Positions 112 through 12,974 of a stretch of DNA of 35,016 bases are shown here, piece after piece (the first letter of the stretch is position 1; each line of letters begins with the position of its first letter). The notes beneath the pieces are model-generated. The model was not told the DNA's origin, made no database searches, and saw nothing but the letters and a program-made list of their open reading frames with translations. A program made the translations under genes and the position numbers. Origin of the DNA: a virus; the IMG/VR virus record IMGVR_UViG_3300013307_000035, positions 1-35,016 of that record; one strand, written 5' to 3'.

Positions 112-390
112 TCAGGCCTCGAAACTGTTCCAGCAGTTCGGGGCTTTTTCTTTTGTCAGAAGCAGCGCCACCTGTTTAGCCAGGCTCGCCAGTTCCTCGT
201 CCTCTACGCCCCATTCCAGAACAGCCAGAAGCATGCTCATCTTTGGTATGAAGCTGTCCTTCCACCGCGTGATCTGCGATTCGTTGATACCCAGCTCAGA
301 CGCTACGTTACGCTGTCCTCTCATCGCTATACGGTTGAGAATGTTGCTTGTAATTGCGTTGGCTTTCTTGCGGGTACTTGTGATTTCCAT
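112..390 (-). CDS. cII: CII-family transcriptional activator
   Basis: A 92-residue DNA-binding activator that in lambdoid phages switches on repressor establishment (PRE) and integrase promoters and so favours lysogeny. The sequence follows lambda CII and P22 C1 closely. It has a helix-turn-helix around residues 20-45 (VASELGINESQITRWK), then IPKMSMLLAVLEWGVED, nearly the same as the lambda segment IPKFSMLLAVLEWGV. The length is typical (lambda 97, P22 92). It is the second gene of the rightward (minus-strand) operon after cro. A TTGC-N6-TTGC recognition site lies within its own first codons, as in lambda PRE. Confidence 0.93.
   Translation of the reverse strand: MEITSTRKKANAITSNILNRIAMRGQRNVASELGINESQITRWKDSFIPKMSMLLAVLEWGVEDEELASLAKQVALLLTKEKAPNCWNSFEA
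344..376 (+). promoter_or_regulatory. PRE, CII-dependent repressor-establishment promoter
   Basis: The plus strand has TTGC-TTGTAA-TTGC at 344-357, an exact TTGC-N6-TTGC CII site. The six bases between the repeats (TTGTAA) would serve as the -35 element. No good -10 hexamer follows 17 bp later, as expected for a CII-dependent promoter. It lies in the 5' end of cII and points through cro (antisense) towards cI, as in lambda. Confidence 0.7.
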
Positions 391-458: not shown

Positions 459-529
459 TGGGTTTTGCCACTTCACCAATTGACGGACTCCTGTCCACGC
501 CTGGTGCCCGACCATATACCGGGTCGTTC
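459..529 (-). promoter_or_regulatory. Put-like antiterminator RNA element, right operon copy
   Basis: This 71-nt segment of the PR transcript, just after cro, has a homologue in the PL transcript (1718-1784). Stem 1 is CGACC (526-522) with GGTCG (513-509) around an 8-base loop ending ATAT. Two Gs follow. Stem 2 has an outer helix CACCA (506-502)/TGGTG (478-474) and an inner helix GGAC (496-493)/GTCC (488-485) closed by an AGGA tetraloop. It ends with AAGTGGCAAAACCCA (473-459). The left copy keeps the same helices through compensatory changes and has the same tail with one difference. Two stem-loops close together, present in both early leaders, match the layout of HK022 put sites. Antitermination is inferred. 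Confidence 0.65.
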
Positions 530-544
530 GGAACTAAAAGTACA
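530..544. promoter_or_regulatory. Extra repressor operator downstream of cro
   Basis: GGAACTAAAAGTACA differs at one base from the operator at 821-835 (GGAACTGAAAGTACA). It sits 6 bp beyond the cro stop codon and directly abuts the put-like element, about 290 bp from the main OR cluster. It could be a distal operator for CI or Cro, used for looping or as a roadblock on PR transcription. Confidence 0.6.
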
Positions 545-550
545 AATTAA

Positions 551-781
551 TTACGCAGCAATTTGCTGCTTACTGATACGTCGAATCTCTGCTGCTGAAT
601 ACTTGCCGCCGGATGCTTTGGCGATCTTTCCTGCATAGTCCGTTTCACCGGTGAACTCTGTGCGTGGGAGTGAACCGCGCTCAAGCCACTTGTAAACAGC
701 CTTTGGAGTCAGGCCGCAAACATCAGCCACAACAGAAACACGAACTGCTTTCAGAACGTCTCCCAACGTAATCGCGTTCAT
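551..781 (-). CDS. cro: Cro-family repressor
   Basis: A 76-residue DNA-binding protein with a helix-turn-helix near residues 15-35 (VVADVCGLTPKAVYKWLERG), divergent from cI and first gene of the PR operon. Its job would be to repress PRM and later damp early transcription during lytic growth. The start ATG (complement of 779-781) has GGGAG seven bases upstream and lies about 25 bp after the predicted PR start. Its strand, size and position next to cI operators support the call; the sequence is only distantly like lambda Cro, as is usual. Confidence 0.85.
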   Translation of the reverse strand: MNAITLGDVLKAVRVSVVADVCGLTPKAVYKWLERGSLPRTEFTGETDYAGKIAKASGGKYSAAEIRRISKQQIAA

Positions 782-796
782 GGTTATCTCCCGTGG

Positions 797-835
797 TGAA
801 CTTAGAGTACATATTATGACGGAACTGAAAGTACA
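797..835. promoter_or_regulatory. OR: two repressor operators in PR
   Basis: Two related 15-bp sites, TGAACTTAGAGTACA (797-811) and GGAACTGAAAGTACA (821-835), have centres 24 bp apart. They fit the partial palindrome TGWACTnnnAGTACA also found at OL with the same 24-bp spacing. One covers the PR start point and the other the PR spacer. Confidence 0.78.
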
Positions 836-840
836 GTCAA
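813..840 (-). promoter_or_regulatory. PR promoter
   Basis: Minus-strand TTGACT (840-835) and CATAAT (818-813) are separated by 16 bp, with the start expected near 806. The promoter drives cro, cII and the genes beyond the left edge. Both hexamers overlap or adjoin the OR operators, so bound CI or Cro would block it. Confidence 0.72.
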
Positions 841-848
841 TAGGTATT

Positions 849-1568
849 ATGATTGAACCTATGGTTCAGGACAAAGAGCGTGATGGATTTCCGCAAAGGC
901 TAGCGCTGGCCTGTGATAAGGCGGGGATTGCTGTGTATGGGAGGCAGGCTGAGATAGCTGTCAGGATAAAGAAAACACCTAAGGCGGTAAGTAAATGGTT
1001 CAACGGGGAGGCGGTGCCGCGACGTGACGTTACGGAAAAATTAGCTAAGCTTCTTGGTACGACTGCATCATACCTGTATGGATATACAGAAGAGGATGGC
1101 ATTGTGCCTGGTCATATCGCAACCGCTTCTGACTCATATCGTGTTGATGTTCTTGATGTACAAGCGAGCGCAGGGCCGGGGGTGATGGTGACAAATGAAT
1201 TTGTTGAAAGAATAAGGGCGATCGAATACACCTCTGATCAGGCACGTTCTCTCTTTAATGGCCGTGCGCAAGATAACGTTAAAATGATTACCGTAAGCGG
1301 CGACAGCATGGAAGGAACCATTAATCCCGGTGACGAAATTTTTGTCGATACTGCGGTAAATAGCTTTGATGGAGACGGAGTTTACGTTTTCGTTTTTGGC
1401 CGGGCGCTGCATGTTAAGCGGCTCCAAATGCAAAAGGATAAGATTGCTGTAATCTCAGACAATCCTGTCTATGACAAGTGGTTCATTGAAAATCACGAAG
1501 AAGAACAGTTACATATAATGGCAAAAGTCCTCCTACGGCAATCCATTGACTACCGCAGATTCAGCTAA
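849..1568 (+). CDS. cI: CI repressor, HTH plus S24 self-cleaving domain
   Basis: The prophage repressor, a 239-residue dimeric DNA-binding protein that keeps PR and PL off and is inactivated by RecA-stimulated self-cleavage. The N-terminal third has an HTH (around residues 32-50, QAEIAVRIKKTPKAVSKW). The C-terminal S24 (LexA/UmuD) domain shows the Ala108-Gly109 cleavage site in ASAGPG, the serine in SGDSM (Ser153) and the general-base lysine in LHVKRL (Lys190). The frame is open from 780, but an ATG there would overlap the cro start and the operators. The ATG at 849 has AGG just upstream and gives a normal family length. The ATG at 861 is the alternative. Confidence 0.92.
   Translation: MIEPMVQDKERDGFPQRLALACDKAGIAVYGRQAEIAVRIKKTPKAVSKWFNGEAVPRRDVTEKLAKLLGTTASYLYGYTEEDGIVPGHIATASDSYRVDVLDVQASAGPGVMVTNEFVERIRAIEYTSDQARSLFNGRAQDNVKMITVSGDSMEGTINPGDEIFVDTAVNSFDGDGVYVFVFGRALHVKRLQMQKDKIAVISDNPVYDKWFIENHEEEQLHIMAKVLLRQSIDYRRFS
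854..868. promoter_or_regulatory. Possible third operator at the cI start
   Basis: TGAACCTATGGTTCA is a perfect 15-bp palindrome with the same TGAAC-start geometry as the other operators, lying over the first codons of cI. Its half-sites differ at the sixth base (C for T), so binding is less certain. If real it would allow repression of cI itself. Confidence 0.4.
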
Positions 1569-1594
1569 TTAAAAAATTCAAAATATTTTCCCTT

Positions 1595-1626
1595 AAAGTT
1601 CATTGAGATAGCAATCAATGAACTTT
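1595..1626. repeat. Perfect 12-bp inverted repeat after cI
   Basis: AAAGTTCATTGA (1595-1606) and TCAATGAACTTT (1615-1626) are exact inverted copies around an 8-base loop, 27 bp past the cI stop. No U tract follows on the plus strand. It may be the 3' end structure of the cI mRNA, or a protein-binding site; each arm contains the AGTTCA/TGAACT operator half-site. Confidence 0.6.
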
Positions 1627-1640
1627 CTACACCTCTTTTG

Positions 1641-1679
1641 TGTACTTTAAGTACTTTACTTTCGTGAACTGTGAGTACA
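1641..1679. promoter_or_regulatory. OL: two repressor operators in PL
   Basis: TGTACTTTAAGTACT (1641-1655) and TGAACTGTGAGTACA (1665-1679) have centres 24 bp apart, the same spacing and consensus as the OR pair. They overlap the predicted PL promoter. Confidence 0.78.
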
Positions 1680-1683
1680 TTAT
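1655..1683 (+). promoter_or_regulatory. PL promoter
   Basis: TTTACT (1655-1660) and CATTAT (1678-1683) are 17 bp apart, each matching four of six consensus bases, with a start near 1690. It would drive the whole left early operon and is covered by both OL operators. Confidence 0.6.
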
Positions 1684-1717
1684 AGGCCCATCGACACGGA
1701 ACAACGTCGATATCGCT

Positions 1718-1784
1718 GAACGGCACAGCATATTGTCGGGCGGGAGGAGAGCTGGAGCTCAATATCCCGAAGAGGCAAAACCCA
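1718..1784 (+). promoter_or_regulatory. Put-like antiterminator RNA element, left operon copy
   Basis: Homologue of the element at 459-529, lying about 30 nt into the PL transcript. Stem 1 is CGGCA (1721-1725) with TGTCG (1734-1738) and an 8-base loop ending ATAT. After GG, stem 2 has an outer helix CGGGA (1741-1745)/TCCCG (1765-1769) and an inner helix GAGC (1749-1752)/GCTC (1757-1760) with a TGGA tetraloop. The tail AAGAGGCAAAACCCA (1770-1784) follows. Against the right copy, one pair in stem 1, three outer pairs and two inner pairs of stem 2 change on both sides and still pair. An intrinsic terminator follows only 16 nt later, which an antiterminator would be expected to override. Confidence 0.68.
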
Positions 1785-1800
1785 CTACACAACAAACGAT

Positions 1801-1830
1801 GTGGCATTTGAGAGTGCCACTCCTTTTGTT
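1801..1830 (+). terminator. Intrinsic terminator in PL leader (tL-like)
   Basis: GTGGCA (1801-1806) and TGCCAC (1815-1820) form a 6-bp stem with an 8-base loop, followed by TCCTTTTGTT. It lies before the first gene of the left operon. Confidence 0.65.
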
Positions 1831-1843
1831 AATCGGAGGTTTT

Positions 1844-2089
1844 ATGAAGAAGAACAGCGTTAAGTGCCCGGTATGCGGTCAGCAGTTCGACCCACGCACC
1901 CCGTTTATGCACATTCAGAAGCACCACAGTGACGCGAAAGAAAGCGAGCTGGCAAAGATCAGAGATGCCCGCCGCAAATGCTTCGGCAGCCCTAAGCCAG
2001 TTAAGCAGAAGACGCTAAGCATTTTACCCCAGGTCGCGCAATTTGCCGCCGGGTTCCGCAAGCCAACAGAGACAGTAACAGCGAGGTGA
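1844..2089 (+). CDS. Small C2H2-like zinc-finger protein
   Basis: First gene of the left operon, 81 residues, starting at the ATG preceded by CGGAGGT (1834-1840). Near the N-terminus a CPVC pair and then HIQKHH about 17 residues on make a C2H2-type zinc finger. The rest is basic (RDARRKC and several lysines). It occupies the position of N in lambda or nun in HK022 but shows no arginine-rich N motif. Its function is unknown; nucleic-acid or RNA-polymerase binding is a reasonable guess from the finger and position. Its stop overlaps an alternative GTG start of the next gene. Confidence 0.72.
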   Translation: MKKNSVKCPVCGQQFDPRTPFMHIQKHHSDAKESELAKIRDARRKCFGSPKPVKQKTLSILPQVAQFAAGFRKPTETVTAR

Positions 2090-2091
2090 GC

Positions 2092-2403
2092 ATGGACCTT
2101 GACCACGGAATACTAAACCTGCCGCTGGAGAAGCGCGGAAATTTCCATAAGGAATTGGATGACCATCTGGTAGCGGAAAAGCGCAGGAAAGAAGATGCGT
2201 TGTTCGTGCGCAAAACAGCCTTCAACGACGCCAAATCACAGGCGCAGCATCTTTATCTCCGGATGGACAATGACCTCATTAAGGCGGAGGCAAAGCGTCG
2301 TGGAATGAAGCTGAGCGAGTTCCGTGAGGTGCTGAAAGACATTCGCGACCTCAAGCCGAAGTTGGCGCCCATCGCATTTGCACCTTTCATACAGGCCGCA
2401 TAA
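2092..2403 (+). CDS. Unknown early protein, charged and helical
   Basis: Encodes 103 residues from the ATG at 2092, which has AGGTG at good spacing. A GTG at 2086 overlapping the previous stop is an alternative. The protein is highly charged (KRGNFHKELDDHLVAEKRRK near the start) and mostly predicted helical by eye; no family is recognised. It is tightly linked to the zinc-finger gene before it. The stop codon lies inside the loop of an intrinsic terminator. Confidence 0.7.
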   Translation: MDLDHGILNLPLEKRGNFHKELDDHLVAEKRRKEDALFVRKTAFNDAKSQAQHLYLRMDNDLIKAEAKRRGMKLSEFREVLKDIRDLKPKLAPIAFAPFIQAA

Positions 2404-2415
2404 GCGGCTTTTTTT
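2395..2415 (+). terminator. Intrinsic terminator within left operon
   Basis: GCCGC-ATAA-GCGGC followed by seven Ts. The loop contains the stop codon of the preceding gene. Downstream early genes would need read-through or antitermination. Confidence 0.75.
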
Positions 2416-2683: not shown

Positions 2684-2706
2684 GCCCTCTTCGCGAGGGC
2701 TTTTTT
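2684..2706 (+). terminator. Intrinsic terminator within left operon
   Basis: GCCCTC-TTCGC-GAGGGC followed by six Ts, just before the ribosome site of the coiled-coil gene. It is the third intrinsic terminator after PL. Confidence 0.75.
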
Positions 2707-10447: not shown

Positions 10448-10801
10448 ATGATAAAATTATTCTCCCGGTATATGTCTGTTGGGATTTTAAATACGGCTAT
10501 ACACTGGGCTGTCTTCGCCCTTTTGATGCATGAAGGCAATAATCAATCCCTGTCAAATTTCTCAGCATTCTGCGTTGCTGTAACGTTTTCCTTCTTTGTT
10601 AACGCGAAGTGGACTTTTAACTCAGAAGCCACAGCGATCCGCTATGTGCTTTATGTATTTTTCATGGGTTCGGTAGCAGCTTTAACCGGTTATTTAGCTG
10701 ACGTGGTGGGCCTACCTCCTGTTTTGACGCTATGTCTTTTCTCAGGCATAAGCCTTGTCGCTGGTTTCGTATATTCAAAATTTTTCGTTTTCAGGAATTA
10801 G
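10448..10801 (+). CDS. gtrA: GtrA, bactoprenol-linked glucose flippase
   Basis: A 117-residue inner-membrane protein with four predicted membrane segments, the GtrA family size and layout. It moves undecaprenyl-phosphate-glucose made by GtrB to the periplasmic face. Typical features are the N-terminal RYMSVGILNTAIHWAVF, a middle FFVNAKWTF, and the C-terminal FVYSKFFVFRN. First gene of the three-gene O-antigen glucosylation operon beside attP, the usual place in P22- and SfV-like phages. Confidence 0.93.
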   Translation: MIKLFSRYMSVGILNTAIHWAVFALLMHEGNNQSLSNFSAFCVAVTFSFFVNAKWTFNSEATAIRYVLYVFFMGSVAALTGYLADVVGLPPVLTLCLFSGISLVAGFVYSKFFVFRN

Positions 10802-10804
10802 ACT

Positions 10805-11737
10805 ATGAGAATATCCCTGGTGGTTCCGGTATATAACGAGGAAGAGTCTATAAAGCTTTTCTGTGAAAGCGCGTTCAGGAATCTTTCTGATTACAAAGTG
10901 GAAATAGTTTTCGTTAATGACGGAAGCACCGATTCTACAGAATCAATCATAGACGGCTATGCAAGAGACTATGACTTTATTAAAGCAATATCTTTCACAA
11001 GAAACTTTGGTAAGGAACCGGCTCTTTTCGCCGGAATTGAACACGCCACCGGGGATGCGATAATTCCAATTGATGTTGATTTGCAAGATCCTATATCCCT
11101 TATCCCTGACATGATAAAAGCCTGGCAGGATGGCGCTGACGTGGTTCTGGCGAAAAGGTCTGATCGAAGCTCTGATAGCCATATGAAAAGCAAAAGCGCA
11201 CAGCTTTTCTATCGACTACACAATAAAATAAGTAAGCCAAAGATAGAAGAGAACGTAGGTGACTTTAGATTAATGTCTCGAGAAGTTGTCGAAAATGTGA
11301 AACTGATGGGCGAAAAAAACCTTTTCATGAAGGGCGTGCTGAGCTGGGTAGGCGGAAAAACAGTAATCATCGAATACAAAAGAGCTGAAAGACACGCCGG
11401 TAAAACAAAGTTTAATGGCTGGAAACTGTGGAATCTTGCTCTTGAGGGAATTACATCGTTCTCAACATTCCCTCTAAGGATTTGGACATATATTGGTTTT
11501 GTTGTTGCATTAATATCTTTTCTATATGGCTCCTGGATGATTATAGATAAAATGATATGGGGTAATCCTGTTCCTGGCTATTCATCAATTTTCGTATCAA
11601 TACTATTTTTAGGCGGCGTTCAGCTTATTGGTATTGGCGTTCTGGGTGAATATATAGGAAGGATTTACATTGAGACTAAAGGCAGGCCGCGTTACATAAT
11701 TAAGGGTAAGGCAAAAGGGGATGATTCGCATGATTAA
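10805..11737 (+). CDS. gtrB: GtrB, bactoprenol glucosyltransferase
   Basis: A 310-residue GT2-family enzyme transferring glucose from UDP-glucose to undecaprenyl phosphate at the cytoplasmic face. It has an N-terminal [13 protein letters not shown] nucleotide-binding start, [10 protein letters not shown], the metal-binding DVDLQDP (Asp-x-Asp), then two C-terminal membrane segments (around 235-255 and 270-295) and [15 protein letters not shown]. Four bases separate it from gtrA and its end overlaps the third gene. Confidence 0.96.
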
Positions 11738-12974
11738 TACAAAGGGAAATATCAAATGGATATTGATTTTCTGTGGGATTTTTTTGGCTATAATGTCAAG
11801 AAGGCCTGACATAATCCTTTCAGCACAACCGTGGGCTGAGGATGGTAAAATATGGATGGAAGGAATATATAACAAAGGATTTTGGAATACAGTACTTTTG
11901 CCACAGAATGGTTATTATCAGACCATATCAATACTGACATATGGCATAGGTCTTTTCTTTGGGGTTGAGCACGCTTCATTTACAGCAAATGTTATTGCTA
12001 TCTCTATAAGATGCTTCTTCCTGATGTTTATCTTATCAAGCAGATTCGATTTCATTAAGATGAGATATAGAGTTGCGGCTGCACTCTATTTCCTTTTGAT
12101 GCCTAACCTTGTAGAGGGTTACGTCAATATAACGAATGCTCACTGGTATCTGTCGATGTACCTTATGGCTATCGTAATGACAGATGATGCTAAAACTAAA
12201 GCGTGGAAAGCACACGATTACGCTTTGATTATCCTTAGCGGACTCAGCGGCCCATTCATAGCTTTCATTGCTCCAGGGTTGCTAATTAAACGACTTTATC
12301 AAAGGAAAGGAATACTAAACACACTGAAAGGGATTAATACTTTTGATGTGCTGTTTACGCTTTGCTTCTTAATTCAGGTTGTGGCAATTATACACTCGTC
12401 AGGCGCTGACAGGTCATCTGCTCCACTTGGTGCGACCTTCCCATTACTTGCTGATATAATTAGCTTTAGGGTTGTTGGTGGCTCATTTTTCACCAATGAT
12501 TTAATATCTGCATTGAGAGAGAAGACGGCAATAAACATCGTTATATTCCTGATCCTTTCCTCTTTGATAATTTACAACTTTATTCGCTCTGACTGGAGAT
12601 TTAAGGCGGCCTGCCTACTGCCTATCCTGATGATAGGTTTTGCGCTGGCTAAGCCAATGATGAGTCCTACCGAACCGCAATGGCCAGTCTTCCTGATGGG
12701 TGGCGCAGGGGAACGCTATTTCTTTGTAACTAACTTTTCTTTGTTCTGCTTTATCTTATTCATGCTGAGCAAAGTCGATAAGTACTCAAAGTTAATTTTA
12801 CCTATACTGGCCGTCATCGTCTTGCCAATATTGATATCTAGCTTCAAGATAAAGCCATTAGATGAAGTCGGCTATATGAAGGATATCGAAAAGTTTAAAA
12901 CCATTCCTGCCGGTCAGGAAATGGAGATTCAGATAAACCCTCCAGGATGGGCGATGAATCTGATTAAGAAGTAA
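11730..12974 (+). CDS. GtrC-type serotype-specific glucosyltransferase
   Basis: A 414-residue multi-membrane-span protein (about 9-11 hydrophobic helices) in the third gtr position. Proteins here attach the glucose to a particular O-antigen sugar in the periplasm and are very divergent, which fits the low recognisable similarity. The motif [13 protein letters not shown] shortly after the first membrane segment matches the acidic loop common in periplasmic GT-C enzymes. The start at 11730 fits GGGG nine bases upstream; the ATG at 11721 sits directly on that ribosome site. It overlaps gtrB. More AT-rich than the virion genes, suggesting recent exchange. The modified O antigen should exclude superinfecting phages that use it. 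Confidence 0.85.

Follow-up and report, generated by a model that had tools for sequence, protein, structure and literature searches.

Two RNA elements in the early region of this DNA, one on each strand, are very probably genuine put-type RNA antiterminators, putR and putL, of a temperate phage with an HK022-related immunity region (probability roughly 0.9); their antitermination activity we infer from homology. HK022 put RNA lets bacterial RNA polymerase pass terminators without a phage protein and is the best-studied RNA that does so. The window analyzed here is the whole of a linear IMG/VR virus record, IMGVR_UViG_3300013307_000035 (35,016 bases). A preliminary description had placed paired-stem elements at 459–529 (minus) and 1718–1784 (plus), early in the PR and PL transcripts, and had read them as put-type. 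Both were found there, element R between a Cro-like gene and cII and element L directly after PL. The put-type reading now draws on homology to HK75 putR, an independent covariance model, covariation, placement and the lack of matches in lambda and P22. The features of the early region are as follows.

112..390, minus: cII (Pfam Phage_CII, E 1.1e-40)
459..533, minus: putR-type RNA element (R), whole, from 5′ pseudoknot strand to tail end (R1 model; HK75 putR homology)
551..781, minus: Cro-like gene (PHROG 35 transcriptional repressor, E 1.9e-13)
780..1568, plus: CI-type repressor (S24 peptidase), about 70% identical to HK022 CI
813..840, minus: PR promoter, TTGACT, 16-nt spacer, CATAAT, start near 806 (consensus scan)
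1655..1683, plus: PL promoter, TTTACT, 17 nt, CATTAT, start near 1690 (homology to annotated HK75 pL)
1690..1711, plus: 5′ leader hairpin AUCGAC...GUCGAU at the start of the PL transcript (folding)
1715..1784, plus: left put RNA element (L), whole (R1 model)
1791..1830, plus: conserved long hairpin AACAAACGAUGUGGCA...UGCCACUCCUUUUGUU, first terminator-like or processing site 3′ of L
1801–1820, plus: terminator-like site (terminator scan of the left operon)
1844..2089, plus: small zinc-finger protein gene at the N/Nun position, first gene after L
2393..2410, plus: intrinsic terminator-like site (same scan)
2684..2700, plus: intrinsic terminator-like site upstream of RecE/RecT-type genes (same scan)

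The PL assignment is a by-eye alignment with HK75 pL; the consensus scan did not pick this promoter. The Cro-like product is 84% identical to that of the gene at the HK022 cro position. In HK022, putR lies about 270 nt below PR and putL right after PL (PMC9378689). The window is arranged likewise, with L following PL and R about 270 nt downstream of the PR start. In the left operon, the terminator-like sites stand between PL and the RecE/RecT-type genes. Many putL leaders carry a hairpin, CATCGAAAC...GTTTCGG, analogous to the one at 1690–1711 in the window, whereas HK022 has no such hairpin. Further along the plus strand, O-antigen modification genes occupy 10448–12974, with GtrB (PHROG E 6.6e-150) flanked by small and large membrane-protein-like ORFs that are probably gtrA and a type-specific gene.

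Each element consists of a pseudoknotted stem I, a GG junction, an adjacent stem II and a tail.

517..533, minus: putR pseudoknot duplex, 529–533 UUCCG with 517–521 CGGUA, 4 of 5 pairs; covaries in the family
509..526, minus: putR stem I, 522–526 CGACC with 509–513 GGUCG; GG at 507–508
474..506, minus: putR stem II, lower helix 502–506 CACCA with 474–478 UGGUG
within 474..506, minus: putR stem II, upper helix 493–496 GGAC with 485–488 GUCC; loop AGGA
459..473, minus: putR tail box AAGTGGCAAAACCCA, common to L and to relatives from tail-free searches
1715..1729, plus: L pseudoknot duplex, 1715–1718 GCUG with 1726–1729 CAGC, 4 of 4 pairs
1721..1740, plus: L stem I, 1721–1725 CGGCA with 1734–1738 UGUCG, then GG
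1741..1769, plus: L stem II, lower helix 1741–1745 CGGGA with 1765–1769 UCCCG
within 1741..1769, plus: L stem II, upper helix 1749–1752 GAGC with 1757–1760 GCUC; loop UGGA
1770..1784, plus: L tail box AAGAGGCAAAACCCA, which recurs in relatives

The shared motifs GAACG, GG between the stems, the tail AAG[T/A]GGCAAAACCCA and a tetraloop of the form [A/T]GGA, reported earlier, are present in both elements. So are the six double-sided pair changes between R and L: one in stem I (C-G to A-U) and five in stem II, three of them in the lower helix (A-U to G-C once, C-G to G-C twice) and two in the upper. The two stem-loops of the preliminary description hold, but its simple 8-base loop does not, as the 5′ strand pairs with that loop and makes stem I a pseudoknot. 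Its coordinates likewise hold except at the 5′ ends: this pairing strand belongs to the element, which moves the starts to about 533 (R) and 1715 (L).

The best blastn match of R is the annotated putR of HK75 (80.9% identity over 92 nt, E 5e-12); the aligned HK75 stretch carries the annotation ‘similar to Bacteriophage HK022 putR’. The same query also matches Lederbergvirus genomes in which the element is unannotated. Salmonella phage S9-5 (Lederbergvirus) has an unannotated putR/putL pair (L003 253–318 and L005 3684–3755). At these places its relative P22 has nut sites and an N-like gene.

The put sequences used to build a covariance model, R1 (HK022 putL and putR, HK75 putR and further putR sequences), included none from the window. 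Run on the window with filters off, it recovers R with 56.1 bits (E 3.6e-10, over 473–535) and L with 24.9 bits (E 9.6e-4, over 1712–1770); the next-best match in the window has E 0.37. R1 also recovers both put sites of HK022 and has no match up to E 10 in the immunity regions of lambda and P22.

The preliminary description had named loss of pairing in homologues as a result that would speak against its reading. Pairing is kept in the 17 homologues aligned: 90.3% of cells in the three helices hold standard pairs, and sliding the partner strand by 1–3 columns lowers pairing to 25–41%. Double-sided changes fill 38 cells, compared with 11.5 in shuffles, and the covariation score was matched by 0 of 500 shuffles, a count that is not a probability since the shuffles do not keep relatedness. 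An earlier 15-sequence alignment gave the same covariation picture. Among 26 distinct stem I sequences, one position of the pseudoknot duplex occurs as G-C, C-G, A-U and U-A. In the cryo-EM structure of HK022 putL, the 5′ strand A3–G7 pairs with C15–U19 in the stem I loop (PMC9378689), and the covariation among homologues, as evidence from sequence, independently supports that pseudoknot. Folding energy is no evidence by itself: compared with its shuffles, R is no more stable (z 0.24), and L has a slight advantage (z −1.68). The case therefore rests on comparison.

The residues known to be essential in HK022 are A9, G35, G45 and A64 (PMC9378689), and the alignment places counterparts of all four in both window elements. 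Both also have the GG that joins the two adjacent stem-loops (G35 G36 of HK022), and both form four pseudoknot pairs. R resembles HK022 and HK75 putR in lying some 270 nt from PR between cro and cII, and in its 5′ pseudoknot duplex, its GG junction, a nearly identical stem I and the GGCG/CAAU core of stem II. It differs in that the stem II sequence is swapped, with compensating changes, a one-nucleotide bulge is lost, and the tail reads AAGTGGCAAAACCCA rather than GATAAAAACCCA. L shares with HK022 putL the position right after PL, a pseudoknotted stem I with the G12·U32 wobble, the GG junction, a non-canonical stem II core and the four essential residues. Unlike HK022 putL, it has a short stem I of the putR class (8 nt between strands) that lacks the U21–C25 third strand and AACCAT, and it has the extra 5′ hairpin, the tail box and then a zinc-finger gene instead of nun.

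Not every HK022 feature has a counterpart. U28 has no clear equivalent in the putR-class stem I of either window element. The −10-like AACCAT of putL is missing from both; since published putR sequences also lack this motif (PMC9378689), it does not define put elements overall. The CAGCAT in L, a NANNAT −10-like match considered as a putL signature, was rejected: it is misaligned with HK022 AACCAT and also occurs in Morganella elements at the putR position. Deleting U68 from HK022 putL abolishes termination suppression and leaves anti-pausing intact (PMC9378689). Stem II of R has no bulge matching U68, and the lack of a base needed for termination suppression in HK022 putL counts against the put reading. 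L has an extra A on the 3′ side of stem II. Natural elements with and without an unpaired base at position 68 exist, and the putL elements L037, L047 and L073 also look bulge-free as read from the alignment. Together, the window and its relatives suggest that natural put elements can do without the U68 bulge and the putL-specific motif.

If the elements work as in HK022, transcription of either one would let the nascent RNA fold into a pseudoknotted stem I, GG and an adjacent stem II. By homology, the folded RNA would dock on the β′ zinc-binding domain and β flap tip at the RNA exit channel. It would then stay bound to polymerase and enable it to resist pausing as well as any intrinsic or Rho-dependent terminators farther along. 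On the right, cII and the replication genes would be expressed without an N protein; on the left, read-through past the sites at 1801, 2393 and 2684 would reach the RecE/RecT-type genes, again without N. Polymerase binding and antitermination by the window elements are inferred from this homology. The β′ zinc-binding sequence CLCGKYKRLKHRGVICEKC is identical in the checked hosts of related elements, which is consistent with the same docking site and is not proof of it.

At least four intrinsic terminators had been reported for the left operon; our scan gives three clear terminator-like sites. The first lies within the 1791–1830 hairpin, whose folding is better than expected (z −3.82; 0 of 200 shuffles as good) and which may serve either as the first terminator or as a site for RNase III. 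Its layout between putL and the zinc-finger gene recurs in the Erwinia and Pantoea relatives. The protein encoded at 1844–2089 has the motif CPVCGxxFDPR...HIxxHH...IRDARR and is predicted to fold as a zinc finger with a helix after it (mean pLDDT 72.9); a structure search with this model gave no significant match (best E 2.5). Homologues lie downstream of putL in many put loci, and in every relative with a recognised element the start codon falls 124–137 nt after the GAACG of that element. In our locus survey, where the same contig can be counted more than once, every locus with a tail-bearing left element has the gene, as do 12 of 75 loci with a tail-less, HK022-class putL, and it never occurs together with Nun.

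Most HK022-class putL loci have neither this gene nor Nun within the stretches examined, which argues against an N/nut-type system in which the elements would be boxA/boxB-like sites for a phage N-like protein. We consider such a system very improbable. A small basic protein gene does stand at the N position, at 1844–2089, and is conserved beside putL in many relatives, but the elements are put homologues in sequence and structure, and neither leader has a boxA-like site (matches were at chance level). The left operon has no match to the N or Nun families, in agreement with the earlier observation that an N-like gene is lacking; the right operon past cII is not part of the record, and an N-like gene could lie elsewhere in the phage. 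The zinc-finger protein shows no similarity to Nun and was rejected as a relative of it; that it is a Nun analogue or partner is possible. Lambda nutL and nutR with N occupy the same two early-operon positions for the same purpose, but the window lacks boxA and N, the RNA is unrelated, and R1 misses both lambda and P22. There is also scant probability that the elements serve in the 5′ leaders to stabilize the mRNA or to direct RNase III processing, with no effect on termination. Structured 5′ ends and the conserved 1791–1830 hairpin could be processing sites, but the nucleotides held fixed are those that HK022 needs at RNA polymerase (A9, G35, G45, A64), a constraint that a role in stability would not by itself impose, and both operons carry the element at the put position, above terminator-like sites.

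An extra conserved tail marks these put elements. In both, stem II is followed directly, at a fixed distance, by the terminal 15-nt sequence AAGWGGCAAAACCCA, which is also present in prophages of Erwinia, Pantoea and Morganella; HK022 putR has only its last part, AAAACCCA. A tail-free pattern search returned 16 stretches, all of which carry the tail (for one, cut by a locus end, further search results were consulted), and putR partners found by a tail-free R1 search (L093, L095, L098, L102 and L108) have the tail or a close variant. Evidence for the tail therefore extends beyond tail-seeded searches. The minimum-energy fold of L pairs the tail GGCAA with the 3′ side of stem I, but relatives such as L098R and L096L cannot do so, and the pairing was not accepted as conserved. 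The tail probably works together with the element. One guess is that it still lies inside polymerase as stem II completes its folding. That it is a new functional put module, holding polymerase during folding or recruiting a phage factor such as the zinc-finger protein, and so defining a second put class, is a tentative proposal that we consider unlikely. A put RNA whose conserved tail is acted on by the 1844–2089 protein is an improbable hybrid. The fixed spacing and the gene just 3′ of every tail-bearing left element would fit it, but the gene also stands beside tail-less putL (the 12 of 75 loci above), HK022 needs no phage protein, and the link between tail and zinc finger may reflect shared ancestry only.

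In Morganella prophages (L082, L087), and likewise in IMG/VR contigs of that type (L076–L080), stem I is identical to that of L and the tail is the same, but the element stands at the putR position; wherever the stretch examined extends far enough, a tail-less putL of the HK022 class lies opposite. Two other loci, L081 and L085, from Erwinia sp. S63 and Pantoea anthophila, have the L-type stem I just 3′ of apparent operator repeats and 5′ of the zinc-finger gene. As far as checked, in a comparison without the sequences of King et al. (2011), the tail, the putR-type left element and the zinc-finger gene appear to form a new put variant. Put itself is already known and rarely described; new here are the tail, the putR-class stem I on the left and the zinc-finger neighbour. 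The 2022 structural paper aligned ten sequences only (PMC9378689), and the window with its relatives gives a broader put set with real covariation. The conserved tail is a directly testable put feature.

The core pattern of R occurs in 70 IMG/VR contigs, 58 of which have a second put match on the opposite strand (manual count, within the stretches examined). Among E. coli genomes, R matches 10 of 5426 and L has no match. R2, a model made for the tail class, had matches in 11 of 392 genomes from the family to which Erwinia sp. S63 belongs and in 5 of 395 from its order; several of these matches are weak and probably chance hits. The tail itself was found in three genomes across both sweeps (G001, G484 and G704) and is therefore uncommon. 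Neither the window elements nor HK022 put match Rfam 15, so such elements escape routine annotation.

Two further loci came up in these searches. A 2.3 Mb genome from the same order has a lone put-like element (L148 3215–3284, R1 E 7e-7) in a phage-like region, after a LexA/CI-like repressor gene and with no second element or window-like CI nearby. The contig IMGVR_UViG_2744054871_000055 (L089, L095) carries two complete put pairs about 22 kb apart, which suggests two adjacent prophages in one record.
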